A DNA stretch of 64,000 nt. Origin: Nitrosomonadales bacterium (GTDB lineage: Bacteria; Pseudomonadota; Gammaproteobacteria; Burkholderiales; Gallionellaceae). Position 1 is the first letter of the stretch, and each line of letters starts with the position of its first letter. The stretch is from NCBI GenBank assembly GCA_016214695.1, contig JACRNY010000007.1, forward strand, positions 1 through 64,000. Direction: 5' to 3'. Below, piece by piece: positions 9,448 through 37,037 of the stretch. Made by a program: the position numbers and the translations under genes. The notes under the pieces were generated by a model. That model was not told where the DNA came from and did no database searches. It worked only from the letters and a program-made list of their open reading frames with translations.

Positions 9448-10764
9448 GTGTCGGTGAGCAACGCGGCAGTGAGCAAGAATAAGTACGGCGATCTGAGCAA
9501 ACGCCTGTGGTTTTTGCTGGGTGCGCTGGTCGTATACCGCATCGGTGCGCATATTCCGGTGCCGGGTATCGACCCGAACGTTCTGGCGGAGCTGTTCAAG
9601 TCACAGCAGGGCGGCATTCTGGGAATGTTCAACATGTTCTCGGGCGGTGCGCTGGAGCGTTTCACCATCCTGGCGCTGGGGATCATGCCGTACATTTCGG
9701 CTTCGATCATCATGCAGCTGGCAGCGATCGCCGTGCCGCACCTGGAGCAGTTGAAGAAGGAAGGTGAAGCAGGCCGCCGCAAGATCACGCAGTACACGCG
9801 TTACGGCACACTGGTGCTGGCGCTGTTCCAGTCGTTCGGTATCGCGGTGATGCTGCAGTCGCAGAAGGATCTGGTGTTGCATCCCGGCATGATGTTCCAG
9901 ATCACCACTGTGATCACCCTGGTGACTGGCACGATGTTCCTGATGTGGCTGGGTGAACAGATCACTGAGCGCGGTCTCGGCAATGGTATTTCGCTGATCA
10001 TCTTTGCAGGTATCGCGGCTGGCTTGCCCAGCGCGATCGGAAACACGCTGGAAATGACGCGTACAGGCGCTTTCTCGATTCCGTTCGTATTGCTGCTGTT
10101 CTTCGGCGCGATCGCTGTGACGGCTCTGGTGGTGTTTGTCGAACGCGGGCAGCGCAAGATTTTGGTGAATTACGCCAAGCGGCAAGTCGGTAACAAGATC
10201 TACGGCGGGCAGAGTTCGCACCTGCCGCTGAAGCTGAACATGGCCGGGGTTATCCCTCCGATCTTCGCATCCAGCATCATCTTGTTCCCGGCGACGCTGG
10301 CAGGATTTTTCGGGTCGGGTGACGGCATGACATGGCTCAAGGATGCAAGCGACATGTTGTCGCCAGGGCAGCCGATCTATGTATTGCTCTATGCTTCGGC
10401 TATCGTGTTCTTCTGCTTCTTCTACACGGCGCTGGTGTTCAGCCCGAAAGAGACGGCAGACAATTTGAAGAAAAGCGGCGCGTTCTTGCCCGGTATCCGT
10501 CCCGGCGAACAGACCGCGAAGTATGTGGAAAAGATCATGTTGCGCCTGACCTTGGTCGGTGCGCTGTACATCACTTTGGTGTGCTTGCTGCCTGAGTTCC
10601 TGGTGGTGTGGAAGAACGTACCATTCTATTTCGGTGGCACTTCGCTGCTGATCCTGGTGGTGGTGACCATGGATTTCATGGCACAGGTGCAGTCGTATTT
10701 GATGACGCACCAGTATGAGAATCTGTTGAAAAAGGCCAACTTCAAGGCCGGGATGTCGCGATAG
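9448..10764 (+). CDS. secY: Protein translocase subunit SecY
   Basis: Polytopic protein of 438 residues forming the channel of the Sec translocon in the inner membrane. It has IPVPGIDPN in the first periplasmic part, the conserved [16 protein letters not shown] cytoplasmic loop and ten predicted hydrophobic segments. It begins with GTG at 9448, five bases after rplO, and its stop touches infA, the usual betaproteobacterial arrangement. Confidence 0.97.
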
Positions 10765-10983
10765 ATGGCAAAAGAAGACGTCATCCAGATGCAGGGTGAG
10801 GTTGAAGAGTCCCTGCCTAATGCGACCTTCAAGGTAAAGCTGGAAAACGGGTTTTCTGTTTTGGGACATATTTCCGGCAAGATGCGCATGCATTACATCC
10901 GCATACTGCCCGGTGACAAGGTGACAGTTGAAGTGTCGCCTTACGATTTAAGCAAGGCGCGTATCGTTTTCCGCGCCAAGTAA
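10765..10983 (+). CDS. infA: Translation initiation factor IF-1
   Basis: Protein of 72 residues, a single S1-type OB fold: [20 protein letters not shown] at the start and [19 protein letters not shown] in the core. IF-1 occupies the A site during initiation. It starts immediately after the secY stop, so it is part of the same operon. Confidence 0.98.
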
Positions 10984-11007
10984 GTTGAGAGAAGCAAGGA
11001 GAAGCAA

Positions 11008-11124
11008 ATGAAAGTGCAAGCATCCGTGAAGAAAGTGTGCCGTAACTGCAAGATCGTGCGGCGCAATCGCGTGGTTCGTGTGATCTGCAGTAGCGATCCG
11101 CGTCACAAACAGCGCCAGGGTTGA
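11008..11124 (+). CDS. rpmJ: 50S ribosomal protein L36
   Basis: Small protein of 38 residues, [20 protein letters not shown] followed by a C-terminal part ending DPRHKQRQG. Cys11, Cys14, Cys27 and His33 form the zinc ribbon of the zinc-binding L36 form. An AAGGAGAAGCAA ribosome binding site precedes it. It closes the spc operon. Confidence 0.97.
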
Positions 11125-11125
11125 T

Positions 11126-11155
11126 TTGAGAAAAATCGCTGCTGGATGGTACAAT
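11126..11155 (+). promoter_or_regulatory. Sigma-70 promoter of the alpha operon
   Basis: TTGAGA (11126-11131) and TACAAT (11150-11155), each one base from consensus, are separated by 18 bases in the gap between rpmJ and rpsM. The expected start of transcription is about 20 bases before the rpsM ATG. Confidence 0.75.
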
Positions 11156-11185
11156 TTACGACTTTTGAATAAATAGGGTAGCTGC

Positions 11186-11551
11186 ATGGCTCGTATTGCC
11201 GGTGTAAACATTCCAAATCATCAACACGCCGTTATCGCGCTGACCGCGATTTACGGTATCGGGCGCACACGCTCGCAGCAGATCTGTGCTGCAGCCGGCG
11301 TTACCACGACCACCAAGATCAAGGACATCAGCGATTCCGATATGGAAAAGCTGCGCGACGAAGTCGCCAAGTTCACGGTGGAAGGTGACCTGCGTCGCGA
11401 AGTGACCATGAACATCAAGCGTTTGATGGATCTGGGTTGCTATCGTGGTCTGCGCCATCGTCGCGGCTTGCCGTGCCGAGGCCAGCGCACACGCACCAAC
11501 GCACGCACCCGCAAAGGTCCGCGTAAATCCATCGCCGGCGCGAAGAAGTAA
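11186..11551 (+). CDS. rpsM: 30S ribosomal protein S13
   Basis: Protein of 121 residues beginning [20 protein letters not shown], with [20 protein letters not shown] near the C-terminus. S13 is in the 30S head and contacts P-site tRNA and L5. It is the first gene of the alpha operon behind a good sigma-70 promoter. Confidence 0.98.
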
Positions 11552-11571
11552 TCAAGTAGAGGAACAGAGAA

Positions 11572-11961
<390 letters not shown>

Positions 11962-11973
11962 GGAGCATAGATC

Positions 11974-12603
11974 TTGGCTAGAAATCTCGATGCAAAGTGC
12001 CGCAAGTGCCGCCGCGAAGGCGAAAAGCTGTTCTTGAAGGCAGAAAAGTGTTTCACCGACAAGTGCGCCGTTGAGCGCCGCGCCTATGCGCCCGGTCAAC
12101 ACGGTCAGAAGAAGAACACCCGTCTGTCCGAGTACGGTGGTCAGCTGCGTGAGAAGCAAAAGCTGCGTCGTATCTACGGCGTGCTGGAGCGTCAGTTCCG
12201 TCTGATCTACAAGAAGGCTGCCGTTTCCAAGGGCATCACCGGCGAAACACTGCTGCAGAATCTGGAATCCCGCCTCGACAACGTCGCCTATCGTATGGGC
12301 TTCGGCGGTTCCCGTGCTGAAGCGCGTCAGACCGTACGTCACAATGGTGTACTGGTCAACGGCAAGCGCGTCAACATCCCGTCCTTCATCGTTCGCCCCG
12401 GCGACGTGGTGGAAGTGGCTGACCGCGCCAAGAACCAGTTGCGTATCAAGTCCGCCCTGCAAGCTGCCGAGCAACGCGGCTTCCCGGAATGGCTCGAAGT
12501 GGATTCCAAGGGACTCAAGGGAACATTCAAAGCCGTTCCTCAGCGTTCTGAGTTGCCAGCCACGATCAACGAGCATCTCGTGGTCGAGTTGTATTCCAAG
12601 TAA
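11974..12603 (+). CDS. rpsD: 30S ribosomal protein S4, zinc-binding form
   Basis: Protein of 209 residues. Cys9, Cys12, Cys26 and Cys31 form the N-terminal zinc site, and an S4-type RNA-binding domain follows ([20 protein letters not shown]). S4 starts assembly of the 5' domain of 16S rRNA and in E. coli represses the alpha operon. Translation starts at a TTG (11974), which fits AAGGAG at 11960-11965. Confidence 0.96.
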
Positions 12604-12620
12604 TCCACGCGGAGTCGAAT

Positions 12621-13592
12621 ATGCCTAACAATAGTCTGTTGAAGCCTCGCATCATCGACGTTCAACGCATCTCCGCCACCCAGGCGAAGGTCGTGATGGA
12701 GCCGTTTGAGCGCGGCTACGGTCACACGCTGGGCAACGCGCTGCGTCGCGTATTGCTGTCTTCGATGCCCGGCTATGCCGTGACTGAAGTCAAGATCGCC
12801 GGCGTGCTGCACGAGTACTCTTCCATCGACGGCGTGCAGGAAGACGTGGTCGAGATCCTGCTGAACCTCAAGGGGCTGGTGCTCAAGCTGCACAATGCAC
12901 GCGAAGTGACCCTGCATCTGCGCAAATCCGGCGCCGGCGTCGTGACTGCTGCCGACATCGAAGTCACAGCCGACACCGAAGTCATCAACCCGACCCATGT
13001 CATCGCCCACCTGACCGCAGGCGGCAAGCTGGACATGGAGATCAAGGTCGAGCAAGGTCGCGGTTACGTTTCCGCCATCTCGCGTATGCAACCCGGCGCG
13101 ACCCGCCCGGTCGGTCATATCGCCCTGGATGCATCGTTCAGCCCGATCTCACGCGTCAGCTATGCAGTCGAGAGCGCCCGCGTCGAGCAGCGCACCGACC
13201 TCGACAAACTGATCATGGACATCGAGACCAACAGCGCCATCGATCCGGAAGAAGCCATTCGCTATTCCGCTCGCGTGCTGATGGACCAACTGTCCGTCTT
13301 CGCCGCACTGGAAGGCACACCGGCTCCGGTCGAGAAGCCTGCTGCACCGAAGGTCGACCCGATGCTGCTGCGTCCGGTCGACGATCTGGAACTGACGCCG
13401 CGCTCTTCCAACTGCCTCAAGGCACAGAGCATCCATTACATCGGCGACCTGATCCAGAACACCGAAGCAGACCTGCTGCGTACCCCGAACCTGGGTCGCA
13501 AGTCGCTCAACGAGATAAAGCAAGTGCTGGCCGAACACGGCCTGTCCCTGGGTATGAAGTTGGAAAACTGGACGGCAATGTCCGAGAAATAA
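12621..13592 (+). CDS. rpoA: RNA polymerase alpha subunit
   Basis: Protein of 323 residues. The N-terminal dimerisation domain (about 1-235) carries [20 protein letters not shown]. The C-terminal domain (about 250-323) carries the DNA-binding [17 protein letters not shown], including the arginine that contacts UP elements. It assembles the RNA polymerase core. It lies between rpsD and rplQ, as expected. Confidence 0.98.
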
Positions 13593-28973: not shown

Positions 28974-29729
28974 TTATGCCGCCATCCAGTCCCTGACCTG
29001 CTGCGCCACCCACTCGCCATCGTCCAGCGGGATATCGTGGCCCGCCGTCGGATGCAGGCGGATGGGGCAGCCCCAGCGTTGTGCCAGCGTGAGCGAGCAT
29101 TTCGCATTCACCAGATTGTCCTGCGGGCCGGAAAGCAGCAACACCGGAACAACAGGCGGCGTTGCGGCGGCGCGGAAGGAAGCGGCGGCACGCAGCTGGC
29201 GCAGGATGTTGGTCCGGCTGACCGGACATGTGCGCGCGTACGATTCCCACTGATCGAGCAAGGTCTGGCGTTGCTGCACGGTGCGCTCCCGGTTGCTGGT
29301 GATGCGCAGCACCGACCTTTCGCGTGCCGGAATGGAGTTGAAGACAAGGAAGCGCATCAGGCCGGGATAGTTGCGCGGGCGCATGCGCTGGTAGAACGGG
29401 TTGTATGGCGCCAGGCTGGTGTTGATCAGCACCATGCGTGCGAGTTCCTGCGGATAGCGTTCGCTCCAGGCCACCGCCACCATCGCACCCAGCGATAAGG
29501 CCAGCACGTTGTAGGGCGGTCTGTATCCAAGTCGTTCCAACTGCGTGCGGCAGGACTCCGCCATCTCCGCCACGCTGTCCCGGCTGGCCTGCGCGTGCAG
29601 GCTGCCGTTGCCGGGGAAGTCCAGCGTCACCACCTTTTGTGCGCCGGTGATCTTTTGCAACTGCGCGGGGAAATCGCCCCAGTGGCGCGCTTCGCGCATC
29701 AGGCCGCGCAACAATATCCAGGTGCTCAT
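28974..29729 (-). CDS. Alpha/beta-hydrolase family protein
   Basis: Protein of 251 residues starting MSTWILLRGLMREARHWGDF. The oxyanion/HG-like region is LLRGL, the nucleophile elbow NVLALSLGAMV (Ser in xSxG), and the late catalytic histidine TAGHDIPLDDG. No signal peptide, so it should be cytoplasmic. Substrate unknown. The start overlaps the stop of the M14-type peptidase gene upstream (ATGA), so the two are coexpressed. Confidence 0.8.
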   Translation of the reverse strand: MSTWILLRGLMREARHWGDFPAQLQKITGAQKVVTLDFPGNGSLHAQASRDSVAEMAESCRTQLERLGYRPPYNVLALSLGAMVAVAWSERYPQELARMVLINTSLAPYNPFYQRMRPRNYPGLMRFLVFNSIPARERSVLRITSNRERTVQQRQTLLDQWESYARTCPVSRTNILRQLRAAASFRAAATPPVVPVLLLSGPQDNLVNAKCSLTLAQRWGCPIRLHPTAGHDIPLDDGEWVAQQVRDWMAA

Positions 29730-30736
29730 GGCCGGTACCAGCGCGCGACCGCACGCTCCTGCATACGCAGACGGGTGGGGCCTGTCGCCAGCCATTTATC
29801 GTGGCCGCTGGCGGCGCGCATCAGGAAATCCAGCCACACCGCATGCCGGCGCAGCACGCGGTGCAGGCGATGCTCGACCGAGGGATTGAACATGCCGTGA
29901 CGCGAGAACAACTGGCGCGGATTCTTCCTCACCCACAGCCAGGAACCCATCTCCAGCGTCAGCGGCAGGAAGGTCTTGCCCTTGTCCTGCCGCGCCTGCA
30001 GATAAAGATAGTCCCATACGTCGCCGTGGGTGCGGTAGTGCAGGCTCTGCGGCTCGAACAGATAACGGTTGTTGGGCCAGGTCTGGTGGAACAGCTCTTC
30101 CAGCGTGAGGATGTCGGCGAGATGGGCGATGGGTTCGCCGCTGTGCGCGTGCGGGAACCAGATGCGGTCGCGCGAACCGAAACCGGAATGGCAGTCCACC
30201 GCGATGCTGAACTGCCGCGACAGCAACTCCTCGCGCACGACACGGCACAATGCCTGGTTCTCGGTCTCCATCCCGGCGTCGGCCGAACCGCGATACCAGG
30301 GCAGCAGCGGACTGATGCGGTGCCCGCCGAGCAGGAAGGGCACCTTGCCGGTGGCATCGATGGGCGCGTTGCGCATCAGGTCGACGCCGTTCGGGTTGCT
30401 GCGCGTCGATTGCCACATGCCGCCGGGATTGATCAGCGGCATGAACACCAGCCGCACATCCTGCAGCAGGTGATGCAGGCTGTTGTCCCACTCCAGGCGC
30501 GTGAGCAGGCTGCGCAGGAAATACAGCAGCACCTGCGTGCCGATGCGTTCGAGACCGTGGATGCCGCCGAAGAATCCGATCGAGGGTAACTTTGGATCCG
30601 GGTTGCCCAATGTCAGCTGATATACCGGGAAGTCCTTGCCGTCCGCGCTGACCCGGCAGGCGACGCTGGACTGCAGATGATGCTTGCCCAGTTCGAGCAG
30701 GCGTTCGAGTTCTCTCAGTTCGGGCAGGGTGGACAT
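29726..30736 (-). CDS. M14-family zinc carboxypeptidase-like protein
   Basis: Protein of 336 residues. The zinc motif HxxE occurs in FFGGIHGLERIG (His60, Glu63), the third zinc ligand in AVDCHSGFGS, and the catalytic glutamate in PLTLEMGSW. This is the pattern of M14/AstE-type metallopeptidases. It lacks a signal peptide. An upstream in-frame ATG at 30781 would add 15 residues. It overlaps the downstream hydrolase gene by four bases; a joint role in processing a peptide or amide is possible but unproven. Confidence 0.78.
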   Translation of the reverse strand: MSTLPELRELERLLELGKHHLQSSVACRVSADGKDFPVYQLTLGNPDPKLPSIGFFGGIHGLERIGTQVLLYFLRSLLTRLEWDNSLHHLLQDVRLVFMPLINPGGMWQSTRSNPNGVDLMRNAPIDATGKVPFLLGGHRISPLLPWYRGSADAGMETENQALCRVVREELLSRQFSIAVDCHSGFGSRDRIWFPHAHSGEPIAHLADILTLEELFHQTWPNNRYLFEPQSLHYRTHGDVWDYLYLQARQDKGKTFLPLTLEMGSWLWVRKNPRQLFSRHGMFNPSVEHRLHRVLRRHAVWLDFLMRAASGHDKWLATGPTRLRMQERAVARWYRP

Positions 30737-30862
30737 GTGCGTGCGGATCGTCTGGGTTGTGCTCGACGAGGGATTCTGCACTTCTTCGGACGGCTTGTCT
30801 GTTGTAATACTTCTCCTGCGACGGGGGCGGCGTCACGGCTGCCGCGAATCCCTCACTGCGTG

Positions 30863-32254
30863 TTACAGCACGCCGTCGTCCATCTGCTTGTACGCATGCA
30901 TCGCGCCATTGGTGTGCGGGCTGTGGATCTCGCTGATGGAGAACACGACCTTGCTGCCGTATGCCTTGACGGCGTCCTTGTTTCCCTTCAGGTGCACACC
31001 GGCCAGATCGAGGCGGCTGTATTTTGCATGGATGGCGGTGTCGCCCGAGATATCGCCGTTGGTGACGGTGAGGTCGGCATATTCCGCATACACGCCTTCT
31101 TCCTTGCCGAGGATGTCGGTGTCGGTCAGCGTCGCCCTGGAGTTGTACACGTGCAGGTGGCCGATGCGCGCGTTGCGGATGGTGACGTTGCTGCAGTCGC
31201 GCAGATCGATGCTGCGATAGTCGCCTTCGAATGTCATGCCGGAGTCGTTCTTGCAGATGCCCTCGCGTTTGCTGGTCATGGCAGGCTTGGCCGGCAGCGG
31301 CTGGAATTGTTCCGTCAGCGAATGCTCGCCGGTCAGCAGGTGTTTCCTGACCAGCGTATTCGTTTGTTCGATTTGATCCTGCATGGGTTCATGCCCGGCA
31401 TCGGCGATGATCTCCAGACGCGCGTAAGGCATGCGCGCAGCCAACACCTTGCCGGTGCGCAGCGGCACGGTCAGGTCGCTGTCGCCCCACAGGATGAGCG
31501 TGGGTTCGTTGACCGAGGTGACGGCGTAGCTGAAATCCTCTCCCGCCAGTTCGAGTGCAGCGATCTTCTCGGGGCCGCCCTGCAGCACCTGATCGCGCCC
31601 GAGTGCAGAGTTGGCGATGTCGATGGGCGAGATCGGCAGCTTGTCCACCTGCTCCAGCAGTTTGCCGGACAGGCGCTCGGCGAAGCCGCGCGTCTGCTTC
31701 ACACCGCTGGTGCGTTCCAGCATGGAGCCGGCCTGGAACTTGGAGATCACCTGCGGGTGCAGGATGCCGGCGGCATCGATCAGCACCAGACGCTGGAAAC
31801 GCAGGGGACGCTGTGCGGCGAAGCGCAGCGCGATGGCGCCGCCCATCGAATGGCCGACGATGTGATAGTCCTTGTTCGGGAAATAGCGGTCGGCGAGGAA
31901 ATGCGCCAGGCGCGCATAGCGTGTCGGCGAATATTCCTGGCTGCCCTTGTCGGACTTGCCGAAGCCGGGCAGGTCGAAAGCGAGCACATGGAAATCCTTC
32001 GCCAGCGCGGGGATGGTGTTCTTCCAGTCGTCGGTGGAGCCGCCGAGACCGTGGATGAGGATCACGCCGACCCTGGCATCGCGGTTCGCCTGCACGGTGC
32101 AGACCTTGCCTTCGAAGATGGGCTCATGGAAGCACTCTTCGTAGGTACCGGGGATGGGTTCCGGCGGCACCGCGGAGGCGGCCTGTTCCTGTGCCGCCAA
32201 CGCGGTGGCGTAGGCAAGCAGGAATGCGACGAGGATGCGCACGGCGACGTTCAT
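30863..32254 (-). CDS. Secreted alpha/beta-hydrolase fused to a beta-helix-like tail
   Basis: Protein of 463 residues. A signal peptide (about 1-21, ending AQE after ALAA) leads into an alpha/beta-hydrolase domain (about 55-310): oxyanion region ILIHGLGGSTDDW, nucleophile GHSMGG, acid LILWGDSD and histidine ADAGHEPMQ. After about residue 345 comes a region of short repeats (IDLRDCSNVTIRNARIGHLH, TNGDISGDTAIHAKYSRLDL) that looks like a right-handed beta-helix. The domain pairing is unusual. It is probably periplasmic; substrate unknown. Confidence 0.75.
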   Translation of the reverse strand: MNVAVRILVAFLLAYATALAAQEQAASAVPPEPIPGTYEECFHEPIFEGKVCTVQANRDARVGVILIHGLGGSTDDWKNTIPALAKDFHVLAFDLPGFGKSDKGSQEYSPTRYARLAHFLADRYFPNKDYHIVGHSMGGAIALRFAAQRPLRFQRLVLIDAAGILHPQVISKFQAGSMLERTSGVKQTRGFAERLSGKLLEQVDKLPISPIDIANSALGRDQVLQGGPEKIAALELAGEDFSYAVTSVNEPTLILWGDSDLTVPLRTGKVLAARMPYARLEIIADAGHEPMQDQIEQTNTLVRKHLLTGEHSLTEQFQPLPAKPAMTSKREGICKNDSGMTFEGDYRSIDLRDCSNVTIRNARIGHLHVYNSRATLTDTDILGKEEGVYAEYADLTVTNGDISGDTAIHAKYSRLDLAGVHLKGNKDAVKAYGSKVVFSISEIHSPHTNGAMHAYKQMDDGVL

Positions 32255-32318: not shown

Positions 32319-33146
32319 TCAGCCTGCGATCAGTCCCTCTGTCTGCAGCAGTTCGTCGAGGTCGTCGAGCAGGCGGTCGACGCACCTGGGCAGATCCCCG
32401 TGCGCGGCAGGGGCGGCAGCCTGCAACAGTGCATCCACCTGCAGCCGGATATCCTGCGGACGTTTCGGGCAGCGCTCCAGTGCATGGGCGAGCAGGCGCT
32501 TTTCGCCCGGATGCGGCAGCCGGTTCAGCGCGAACAGGATGTCGAAGTAGCTTGCCAGCAAGGCGGTGACGCGGTGATTGACGCTGACATGGTCGTCGCG
32601 TGCCAGCGCCAGCATGATCTGGTGGCGGTAGGACGAGAGCATGCCGCGCAGGACGGGATGGTTCTTGGCGACGACGGCGCGGCGCAGTCCCTCGGGATAG
32701 GGCTGCGCCGCACGCGCCTGCTGCACGGCATACCAGCCGTCCGGGTCGTACAAGGCCTGTGAGTGCAGCACATTGTGCACGAAACAGGTGCTGTAGCCGA
32801 CCGCGGCCTGGTGCCGGATCAGCACACGGTCGAGCTGCTCGCGCAACCATGCCGGCGAGCGGTACATGATGTCGACCACTGTGCCGGTCTGCTTCGCCAC
32901 CCATTCGTCGCCGGTCTCCCAGAAGCGGTTGCCGATGCTGATCTGCTCGCCCAGTCTTTGCGCCAGTTCGAAGCGCCACACCTCCGCCGGTTCACTGTCG
33001 GCATAGACGTACAGGTCGAGGTCGGAGCGTTCGTCCGCGAATTGGCTGCCTTGCGATCCGGCCAGCACGACCGCGCGCACTTCCGGCAAGGCGGCGAATC
33101 CCGCGGCGATGTCTCTCAGCAGTTCCTGGGTGGCGGCATCGTTCAT
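32319..33146 (-). CDS. Nucleotidyltransferase-fold protein (DUF4037-like)
   Basis: Protein of 275 residues. The N-terminal polymerase-beta-type nucleotidyltransferase motif is VVLAGSQGSQFADERSDLDL (GS then DxD), and a third acidic residue lies in TGTVVDIMYRS, so the metal site is complete. A helical C-terminal half follows (KNHPVLRGMLSSYRHQI). It starts within four bases of the end of the neighbouring nucleotidyltransferase gene (ATGA). The substrate is unknown; candidates include small molecules such as antibiotics. Confidence 0.72.
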   Translation of the reverse strand: MNDAATQELLRDIAAGFAALPEVRAVVLAGSQGSQFADERSDLDLYVYADSEPAEVWRFELAQRLGEQISIGNRFWETGDEWVAKQTGTVVDIMYRSPAWLREQLDRVLIRHQAAVGYSTCFVHNVLHSQALYDPDGWYAVQQARAAQPYPEGLRRAVVAKNHPVLRGMLSSYRHQIMLALARDDHVSVNHRVTALLASYFDILFALNRLPHPGEKRLLAHALERCPKRPQDIRLQVDALLQAAAPAAHGDLPRCVDRLLDDLDELLQTEGLIAG

Positions 33147-33931
33147 CGTGATCTCCCCTCGCTTGCCGTGCGTCCGCACAGTCCCGCTATGGCCTCTCTC
33201 ATCGCCGGGTTCAGTTCGAAGTGCCGGTCGAGAAAGGCCAGGATGGCCTGTGCGGATTCGATGTTGCGTTCATACCCTTGCGCGTATTGCGCCAGCGCCT
33301 GTGCGCCGGCCGGGTAGCGCTGCTCATAGCGGCGCTCGAAGGCGAAGATGTCGCGCGCGGCAGAAGCCGCCGGCTCGATGGACGCGGCGAGTTCGAGGAC
33401 GCGGTCGAGCGCCTGGACCTGGATGGCGCGCATGGCGGCGAGCTTCTCGCCGCGCGCATGACGGCTCAGGCCGACATAGAGATTGCTGAGTGCTTCGCCG
33501 AGGAGCCATGCGCTGGAGCGCTCTTCAACCTGCCTGGGTGCCGGCTGCAGTTGTGCCTCCTCGACATCGGCCTGCTTCCAGACGATGCGGCCGGGGGAGA
33601 ACGGGATATGGCGCAGCTCGGGCATCTCGAACACCGCGAACTCGCAGAACACGCCGTCTTCGAACAGGACCTTGTGGCCGTCGCGGGTGTTGCGATATGA
33701 GAAGACGACAGGACGGATGCGGGAGAGCCAGGCAAGGTCATCGATGAATTCGCCCTTGCAACCGCTCGCGACGATGGCGAAGAAGTCCAGGTCGGAATAG
33801 GCGTCCAGCCGCTCCGGCTCGCTGCCGGCCGAGCCCAGCCCGATCAGGGCCAGCGCCTTGCCGGATCGCGCCAGCGCTGCACCGATCTCGTCCAGTCTTG
33901 CCAGCAACAACTTCCGTTTGTCTGTGGACAT
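33143..33931 (-). CDS. Lincosamide-nucleotidyltransferase-like protein
   Basis: Protein of 262 residues. LIGLGSAGSEPERLDAYSDL with DFF gives the GS and DxD metal-binding pattern, and the following AWLSRIRPVVFSYRNTRDGH plus KVLFEDGVFCEF aligns by eye with lincosamide nucleotidyltransferases of the LnuB/LnuF type. I place it in that superfamily without claiming resistance activity. It is coupled to the second nucleotidyltransferase gene and follows an aldo/keto reductase gene on the same strand. Confidence 0.65.
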   Translation of the reverse strand: MSTDKRKLLLARLDEIGAALARSGKALALIGLGSAGSEPERLDAYSDLDFFAIVASGCKGEFIDDLAWLSRIRPVVFSYRNTRDGHKVLFEDGVFCEFAVFEMPELRHIPFSPGRIVWKQADVEEAQLQPAPRQVEERSSAWLLGEALSNLYVGLSRHARGEKLAAMRAIQVQALDRVLELAASIEPAASAARDIFAFERRYEQRYPAGAQALAQYAQGYERNIESAQAILAFLDRHFELNPAMREAIAGLCGRTASEGRSR

Positions 33932-35584: not shown

Positions 35585-36472
35585 TTAGTTTTTGCTGCTG
35601 ATGCCGAGCAATGAGTGCGCCTGCATGGCACAGGCACTGCCGGTCTCCGTATCCAGTTTTTTCAGCCAGTCTTCCGGTATCTCTTCCATCCCGTACAAGG
35701 CCCCCGCCAGCATGCCGGCGATGGCGCCGGTGGTGTCGGCATCGCCGCCGCGGTTCACCACATCGACCAGGCAACCCTGGAAATCATCGGTATCGAAGAA
35801 ACTCTGGAACACCGCCTGCAAGGTGTCTGCGACATAGCCGCTGGGGTTGCGCGCGGGTTTCACCGCACGGAACTTGAAAGCCGGGAAGCGCGCGGCGAGC
35901 GGATGGGCATGGTCGTGCAGCAGATCGTTCTTGCCCGCGCCGCGCAGCGCGTCATGCACCATGGATACCAGGCATTCGCAGGCGGCATCGGAGAGCGCGC
36001 AGTGGTGGGTGACGTGCGCCTGCGCGCGGCTGGCGGCGCGTACCGTGTCCTCATCCTGGCCGAAGGTGGCGAGCGCCACCGGCAGCACGCGCATCGCCGC
36101 ACCGTTGCCGGCATCGTGGTCGGAGTAGGGCGCCTCGGGAGAGCCGGTCTTGCGGAACTGCAGCAGGTTGCGGCGCACGGTGTTGCCGATGTCCACCGGC
36201 TTGGCGCGCATCCACGCGTCGAACGCCTGCGCCGCGGCGAGCGCATCCACTTTGCCCTGTGCGAGGATGGCGTTGCCGAGCGCGAGCGACATGGTGGTGT
36301 CGTCGGTGACCTGCCCCGGTTTCAGGTGCAGCCAGCCGCCGCCGATGAGCTTGTCGTGGGTGCCATACTTCGCCGCGATCTCGCGCGGCGTCATGAATTC
36401 CACTGTCGAACCCAGCGCGTCGCCGATGGCGAGGCCGAGATAGGCGGCGCTGGCACGGTCGCTGACGAACAT
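35585..36472 (-). CDS. draG: DraG-like ADP-ribosylglycohydrolase
   Basis: Protein of 295 residues. The two-metal centre is built from AYLGLAIGDALGSTVEFM, TDDTTMSLALGNAI and NRGGDADTTGAIAGM, as in DraG, which removes ADP-ribose from the nitrogenase Fe protein to reactivate it. It is the last gene of the nifB operon, seven bases after nifQ. No draT (the transferase partner) is in this window. The start MFVSDRASA (36472) is chosen over an upstream one. Confidence 0.85.
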   Translation of the reverse strand: MFVSDRASAAYLGLAIGDALGSTVEFMTPREIAAKYGTHDKLIGGGWLHLKPGQVTDDTTMSLALGNAILAQGKVDALAAAQAFDAWMRAKPVDIGNTVRRNLLQFRKTGSPEAPYSDHDAGNGAAMRVLPVALATFGQDEDTVRAASRAQAHVTHHCALSDAACECLVSMVHDALRGAGKNDLLHDHAHPLAARFPAFKFRAVKPARNPSGYVADTLQAVFQSFFDTDDFQGCLVDVVNRGGDADTTGAIAGMLAGALYGMEEIPEDWLKKLDTETGSACAMQAHSLLGISSKN

Positions 36473-36479
36473 GGGCAGA

Positions 36480-37037
36480 TTATTCTTCGGGTCCGAAACA
36501 CTTCTGGTAATCGGCGCACACCTCGCAACTCGGCGCACGGCAGATGCGTATCTCCTCTTTCTCGCACAGCTGCTTGTAGAGGAACTTCTTCCACTTCATG
36601 TCCTTGCTGTTCTTCGCCGCGAGGGCGGGGAAGTTCTGTGTCATCAACTGACTCAGATATTTGCGCGACCACAGGCCGAGGTCCTGCCACAGATGGTCGT
36701 TGGCCATGCAGGCGGCGGTGACGATCTCCGCCATCCAGCTTTCCGATTCGTCGCGGCCGGCGCGATGCTCCAGCAGCAGTGCGAGCACGTCGTCACGTTC
36801 CGGCGCGCGTCCGTCGTCGCTGTCGCGCTGTCCGCGCACCACGATCTGCATGCGGGGAAAGTGGCGCGTCAGCAGGGCGGCGAAATCCGCCTCTTCCAGG
36901 CCAAGGCAGGGCGGCAGCGCGCAGGCACCGCCCACCTGGCTGCAGATCATCTGTGCGAACAGTTCGTCGTTGGGCAACCCGGTCGCGCGTTCCATCAGCT
37001 GCGTGTACAAGCCAGAGATTTGAAGATTGCCTTTCAC
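36480..37037 (-). CDS. nifQ: NifQ, molybdenum donor for FeMo-cofactor
   Basis: Protein of 185 residues. The NifQ signature C-x4-C-x2-C-x5-C appears at the C-terminus in CRAPSCEVCADYQKC and binds the Fe-S/Mo cluster. I start it at GTG (37037), which has AAAGGACGAAC just upstream. An ATG at 37115 would add 26 residues encoded by a family C repeat, so it is less likely to be original. It lies between a ferredoxin gene and draG. Confidence 0.88.
   Translation of the reverse strand: MKGNLQISGLYTQLMERATGLPNDELFAQMICSQVGGACALPPCLGLEEADFAALLTRHFPRMQIVVRGQRDSDDGRAPERDDVLALLLEHRAGRDESESWMAEIVTAACMANDHLWQDLGLWSRKYLSQLMTQNFPALAAKNSKDMKWKKFLYKQLCEKEEIRICRAPSCEVCADYQKCFGPEE

Follow-up and report, generated by a model that had tools for sequence, protein, structure and literature searches.

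An exported-type alpha/beta-hydrolase with a predicted beta-helix tail co-occurs with aryl-polyene pigment genes in Pseudomonadota

The gene on the reverse strand at 30863..32254 of the 64,000-nucleotide stretch of a Nitrosomonadales genome analysed here (the window) belongs to a discrete family in which an alpha/beta-hydrolase domain is followed, in constant order, by a C-terminal tail. Every distinct carrier genome tested (21 of 21) also encodes PF13723, the short ketosynthase of aryl-polyene clusters, which we used as a marker; this link with the pigments has good support as an association but does not prove function. The genomes direct attention to the aryl-polyene pigments of the outer membrane, which include esters, and we give about even odds to the proposal that the protein works outside the cytoplasm as a serine hydrolase, with an ester-linked aryl-polyene pigment or the pigment's outer-membrane lipid anchor as its substrate.

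Hydrolase domain, export signal and beta-helix tail

The gene is one uninterrupted reading frame with an ATG start, coding for 463 amino acids plus a stop codon. A sequence-only reading of this DNA had claimed a complete set of Ser-Asp-His hydrolase motifs, and these were borne out. The hydrolase domain spans residues 45-306 (31337..32122, reverse strand, as are all features below), and Abhydrolase_1 of Pfam matched residues 64-290 with E 1.4e-33 and 117.1 bits, against a cut-off of 25.8. The nucleophile S136 in the motif GHSMGG (31847..31849), the catalytic acid D260 (31475..31477) and the catalytic H288 (31391..31393) did not vary among the 20 diverse members of the family that were aligned, nor did R266 and T267. 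On the strength of the Pfam match above cut-off and the Ser-acid-His triad, the window protein can be assigned to the alpha/beta-hydrolase superfamily.

The same reading had predicted a signal peptide, in agreement with what we observed at the N-terminus. Residues 1-22 (32189..32254) form a hydrophobic stretch, its extent judged by eye, that is the putative export signal. Seven orthologues align over their full length with the window protein at 67-89% identity, and in six of the seven the hydrophobic segment, as read by eye, closes with AWA, AWS, AWG or VWG; such short stretches resemble a signal-peptidase-I site. By the same kind of inspection, the N-termini of the family resemble cleavable signals and some carry lipoboxes, with a lipobox-like motif in 4 of the 20 aligned members (L020, L021, L026 and L050), a count that leaves out two further pattern matches, L012 and L044. 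Since the N-termini are signal-like and some carry these motifs, we infer that the enzyme is exported and located outside the cytoplasm, where it would be periplasmic or, in some species, a lipoprotein.

The C-terminal part, residues 330-463 (30866..31267), is a predicted right-handed beta-helix domain with rungs in register at residues 372, 393, 413 and 434, according to models, alignment and self-comparison. When modelled in isolation (residues 326-463, from six sequences) the tail consisted of strands only, with a mean pLDDT of 81.4 and a pTM of 0.76, residues 447-455 being the sole poor part. The model of the full protein had a mean pLDDT of 64.7, with the tail residues 331-430 at 71-83 and the lid residues 166-239 below 50. 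The structure prediction and fold search proposed from the sequence, when run, gave a tail that is neither disordered nor a normal hydrolase lid; the usual lid is instead found within the hydrolase domain, at about residues 166-240, where the model has low confidence. Realignment of the Foldseek candidates with VIA-align 2 gave Z scores of 9.2-11.5 over 115-136 residues among the 50 matches listed, which included phage tail proteins, pertactin, pectate lyases, NosD and the C-terminal domain of CAP. Foldseek itself found nothing in the PDB at E <0.001, the best value being 0.015, and pentapeptide-repeat and CAP proteins topped its list. Since the Z scores are of this size but no Foldseek match falls below 0.001, the support for the tail extends to its fold but not to homology, and the models agree with the beta-helix first proposed in that they place it in the right-handed parallel beta-helix fold.

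Sequence searches with the tail gave little. For the window protein, the Pfam families Beta_helix (PF13229; E 0.021, 14.9 versus 25.9 bits) and NosD (PF05048; 12.5 versus 23.6 bits) stayed below cut-off, and neither was among the best 25 of 26 Pfam families in a scan of 20 members at E 0.01. There was no tail model among the best 25 of the 43 NCBIfam matches of the window protein, three tails searched alone against NCBIfam gave chance matches only (E 0.016 or worse), PHROGs gave none for the tail, and a tail profile run against solved sequences returned four matches, none significant (best E 0.44). The tail therefore has its fold in common with pectate lyases, NosD, tailspikes and the C-terminal domain of CAP, but no significant sequence match to known beta-helix proteins, and here a short helix is fused to a hydrolase.

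The short repeats that had been noticed in the tail are real in the window protein and weak in half of the family. When the window tail was compared with itself, the best match came at an offset of 41 residues, or two rungs of 20-21, and 0 of 300 shuffles equalled it; the tails of two longer relatives peaked at 21 (0 of 300 each). Of 18 tails, nine scored clearly above their shuffles (equalled by no more than 5 of 300), seven of them at offsets of 21, 22 or 41 and two at 27 and 32, while the other nine did not (11 to 217 of 300 as good). Four rungs can be read directly from the alignment and about six by eye. The tails of L026 and L050 hold an insertion of about two extra rungs; variation in rung number is typical of solenoids. 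These two proteins are second copies, in genomes G417 and G200 respectively, both with lipoprotein-like N-termini, and in both the otherwise constant D416 is replaced.

Invariant positions also occur in the tail. C334 (31253..31255) and C354 (31193..31195), at the N-terminal end of the helix, are probable disulfide partners and, like S439 and H453 near the C-terminus (30896..30898), are conserved in 20 of 20 aligned members. Overall the tail evolves faster than the hydrolase, with a mean identity among aligned members of 31% versus 41%.

Extent of the family

As counted here the whole family comprises 24 genes in 22 Pseudomonadota genomes, and in all 24 hydrolase and tail occur together. Three candidates, one secretin-like (L025) and two with weak beta-helix matches (L046 and L047), were dropped before counting. 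A tail profile found 13 of the 369 genomes sampled from the class, own genome included; the match in one of them, G433, was secretin-like and false, leaving 12 class carriers with 13 genes, every one with the hydrolase. The second copy in G200 surfaced when the hydrolase was the query. With a wider tail profile, 7 of 398 genomes of the phylum sample matched, namely the own genome, G013, three new members (G633, G658 and G717) and two with weak matches to large proteins, and seven of 100 sampled relatives, own genome included, were carriers. Full-length relatives were found on five named contigs, labelled Sideroxyarcus, Gallionellaceae, Nitrosomonadales (two) and Gammaproteobacteria, and by these labels the own genome seems to be related to Gallionellaceae. 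Among plasmid records there were two matches, both from Rhodococcus and to the hydrolase part only.

The tailed hydrolases also stand apart from other hydrolases of the same genomes. A hydrolase-domain search of 14 carrier genomes recovered 15 tail-bearing genes at E 5.6e-42 or better and 19 others from 5e-19, and the tail was absent from the 15 of these 19 that were examined. In a tree of 20 tailed and 15 tail-less rows, all tailed rows fell on one side of a branch with support of 85/87, present in 83% of bootstrap trees; given the long branches we regard this support as moderate. Distances between hydrolase domains and between tails were correlated (r 0.86 over 190 pairs). The alignment of 20 rows leaves out the near-copies L001-L003 and L018.

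The sequence-only reading had been unable to place this architecture in a named family, and we likewise found none for the combination of hydrolase and beta-helix in Pfam, NCBIfam or PHROGs, nor any title on such a fusion in a literature search.

Association with aryl-polyene genes

The co-occurrence with PF13723 was scored in the same genome samples as the carrier counts; the own genome is counted in two of the samples behind the 21 of 21, and the genome of L004 was left out. In the class sample the marker was present in 12 of 12 carriers versus 87 of 369 genomes (hypergeometric P 1.6e-8), among the relatives in 7 of 7 versus 28 of 100 (P 7e-5), within the genus in 7 of 7 versus 11 of 34 (P 6e-5), and in all three of the further carriers G633, G658 and G717. 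Carriers share ancestry and the genomes are not independent, so that these P values overstate the significance; with families as the unit, the eight that include carriers, all of them positive, give a P of about 1e-5 to 2e-5. The single control, the unrelated envelope family FadL (PF03349), had no association in the same 369 genomes (9 of 12 carriers versus 242 of 369, P 0.36). Distances between enzymes and between ketosynthases agreed across 11 carriers (r 0.74, 0 of 2000 permutations), which may reflect shared species history; carriers whose ketosynthase was absent, weak or near-identical in the stretches, or for which there was no stretch, were omitted.

Of the 87 marker-positive class genomes, 75 lack the gene, which is hence not a conserved core gene of all aryl-polyene clusters but accessory to them, and would serve an optional step.

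Physical linkage was examined in 15 carriers, the own genome (G000) and 14 outside its genus. In five of them (G224, G434, G460, G658 and G717) about 2-11 kb separate the gene from PF13723, and it is situated within or beside an aryl-polyene, xanthomonadin or arcuflavin cluster; in G633 and G387 the two share a contig at about 56 and 100 kb, and in the other eight they are on different contigs, some of them short. For a target of 24 kb in a 3-Mb genome, five of 15 corresponds to P of about 1e-7, a rough figure since the target was set after seeing the data. The linked stretches of the five genomes encode homologues of an acyl carrier protein (ACP), an AMP ligase, an LpxL-type acyltransferase, a GT2 protein, an MMPL exporter, a ketosynthase (KS) and a KR. 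Around the gene in G224, G434 and G460 we found KR, GT2, LpxL-like acyltransferase, AMP-binding and DUF218 genes in various combinations, and their wider stretches hold ketosynthases, MMPL exporters, a LolA-like protein, an ACP and a FabA-like protein, with a chorismatase as well in G460. Compared with the ape table of PMC8253772 and the arc table of PMC3949708, this gene content, as judged from sequence similarity, is that of aryl-polyene and xanthomonadin clusters. In G460 (L080, L081) a xanthomonadin-like cluster with an FkbO/Hyg5-type chorismatase flanks the hydrolase gene on both sides. No neighbourhood is conserved overall across the family. In G005 (L096) a cytochrome c7-type gene at 10260-12644 (reverse strand), with an MtrC/MtrF-like match just below cut-off, adjoins polyene ketosynthase genes.

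Two of the linked carriers, G717 and G658, belong to another class, around which the family is rare: in a sample of 100 relatives of G717, only G717 itself carries the gene. This suggests that the gene can move along with the cluster.

In the own genome the enzyme gene and PF13723 are on different contigs, and none of 18 aryl-polyene-cluster proteins sought in the window had a homologue there. The gene set of aryl-polyene type occurs in two other places. The end of contig C5 encodes homologues of an AMP ligase, a dehydratase-like protein, an LpxL-type acyltransferase, LolA-like and MMPL proteins, a chorismatase, GT2 and a methyltransferase; contig C9 encodes KS, PF13723, a dehydratase-like ORF, KR, ACP, a second KS, a KAS III-like and a BtrH-like protein. 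Taken together these genes resemble, by their homologies, the arc and dar genes of arcuflavin, a hybrid of xanthomonadin and dialkylresorcinol for which a polyene-dialkylresorcinol ester is predicted; the authors of that work also placed arc/dar-type clusters in Sideroxydans lithotrophicus ES-1 (PMC3949708).

The immediate neighbourhood in the window was considered as an operon clue and dropped. It comprises an M14 peptidase, a second hydrolase, nucleotidyltransferases and an aldo/keto reductase, of which the M14 and second hydrolase genes recur only in the close relatives L001-L003. After the hydrolase gene, at 28974-30781 (reverse strand), come an M14 zinc-carboxypeptidase-like gene and a second, tail-less alpha/beta-hydrolase gene, with homologues of both downstream in L001-L003 too. 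On the other side, two genes at 32319-33931 (reverse strand) have weak, below-cut-off similarity to nucleotidyltransferases (MntA-like and lincosamide-nucleotidyltransferase-like), and an ADP-ribosylglycohydrolase gene (PF03747, E 3.6e-63) lies at 35585-36538 (reverse strand). A PADLOC scan for defence systems gave no match for the enzyme, for three neighbouring proteins or for the nucleotidyltransferase-like genes.

Candidate functions

Since the family was found, among the genomes checked, only alongside the marker, the enzyme probably acts on outer-membrane polyene pigments. After export, the polyene carboxylate, or else an acyl chain of the anchor, would be taken over by S136, D260 and H288 as an acyl-enzyme. 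The acyl group might then be passed to water, in release, turnover or editing, or alternatively to another hydroxyl, as a final attachment; alpha/beta-hydrolases are capable of both hydrolysis and transfer. The beta-helix, stapled by the putative disulfide, could serve as a rigid support for the long pigment-lipid or as a dock that fixes the enzyme to the envelope. A more specific version, which we put forward with somewhat less confidence than the general proposal, is a dedicated post-export enzyme that installs, exchanges or removes the ester between the polyene and either its anchor in the outer membrane or its resorcinol partner, with the beta-helix holding the rigid pigment-lipid.

The closest solved protein is PlaF (6i8w), which matches the hydrolase best both by profile (E 4e-41) and in its fold; as a phospholipase that works at a membrane surface, it fits a lipid-like substrate. 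PlaF is a membrane phospholipase A of Pseudomonas aeruginosa, anchored by a transmembrane helix, with the triad S137/D258/H286 and a lid (PMC9132575). The window protein shares with it an alpha/beta-hydrolase fold with a lid (poorly modelled in our protein), nearly equal triad and lid positions, and an ID-AG motif. It is on this ground that the enzyme might instead resemble PlaF in being an extracytoplasmic phospholipase, or a lipase, that acts on envelope lipids, co-occurring with the clusters through outer-membrane remodelling and leaving the pigment untouched, and in G387 a FadL-type porin gene adjoins the family gene. We consider this unlikely, at roughly one chance in four. The identity to PlaF is low (21% in the structural alignment), and PlaF has neither a beta-helix nor the PLRTG motif that follows the catalytic acid here. 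Moreover, a generic lipase leaves the constant co-occurrence with PF13723 unexplained, and FadL itself shows no association.

Still less probable is the idea first raised from the sequence, an esterase acting on acetylated or acylated polysaccharide or on polyester and held on the polymer by its beta-helix. The tail does align with pectate lyases and phage tailspike-type proteins (Z 9-11 among the 50 listed), but a shared beta-helix is no sign of function and the tail is short; nor did the flanking ORFs scanned hold a recurring set of polysaccharide-degrading genes. Two solved enzymes, the poly(3-hydroxybutyrate) depolymerase PhaZ (8ynv), second-best by profile, and the Acinetobacter lipase Lip1 (4opm), are close by profile and fold, both over the hydrolase part only, but the NCBIfam model for intracellular scl-PHA depolymerase (NF050089) was far from being reached by the window protein (82.5 of 300 bits). 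Since aryl polyenes are considered components of some larger lipid or glycolipid (PMC8253772), this idea and the pigment proposal are not exclusive.

Least probable, at the bottom of our ranking, is that the beta-helix is merely a stabilising or dimerising appendage of a small-molecule esterase of unrelated function: the tail's faster evolution and variable rung number would fit, but its union with the hydrolase in every gene of the family and its four invariant residues argue against it, and the co-occurrence with PF13723 would again go unexplained.

The preferred reading, an enzyme acting on the ester-linked pigment or its anchor, has no counterpart in the pathways compared: the ape gene table of Escherichia coli in PMC8253772 names no alpha/beta-hydrolase, nor does the arc/dar table of PMC3949708, in which several genes are unannotated; the supplementary tables of that paper, one of them for Sideroxydans, may list the gene. 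If true, the more specific version would add a post-export ester step that is absent from the pathway models compared here. The work also defines a recurrent two-domain architecture, the second domain of which has no match above cut-off in Pfam or NCBIfam and none in PHROGs. A compact hydrolase with a putative export signal that tracks these clusters is a directly testable candidate for a step that would take place outside the cytoplasm.
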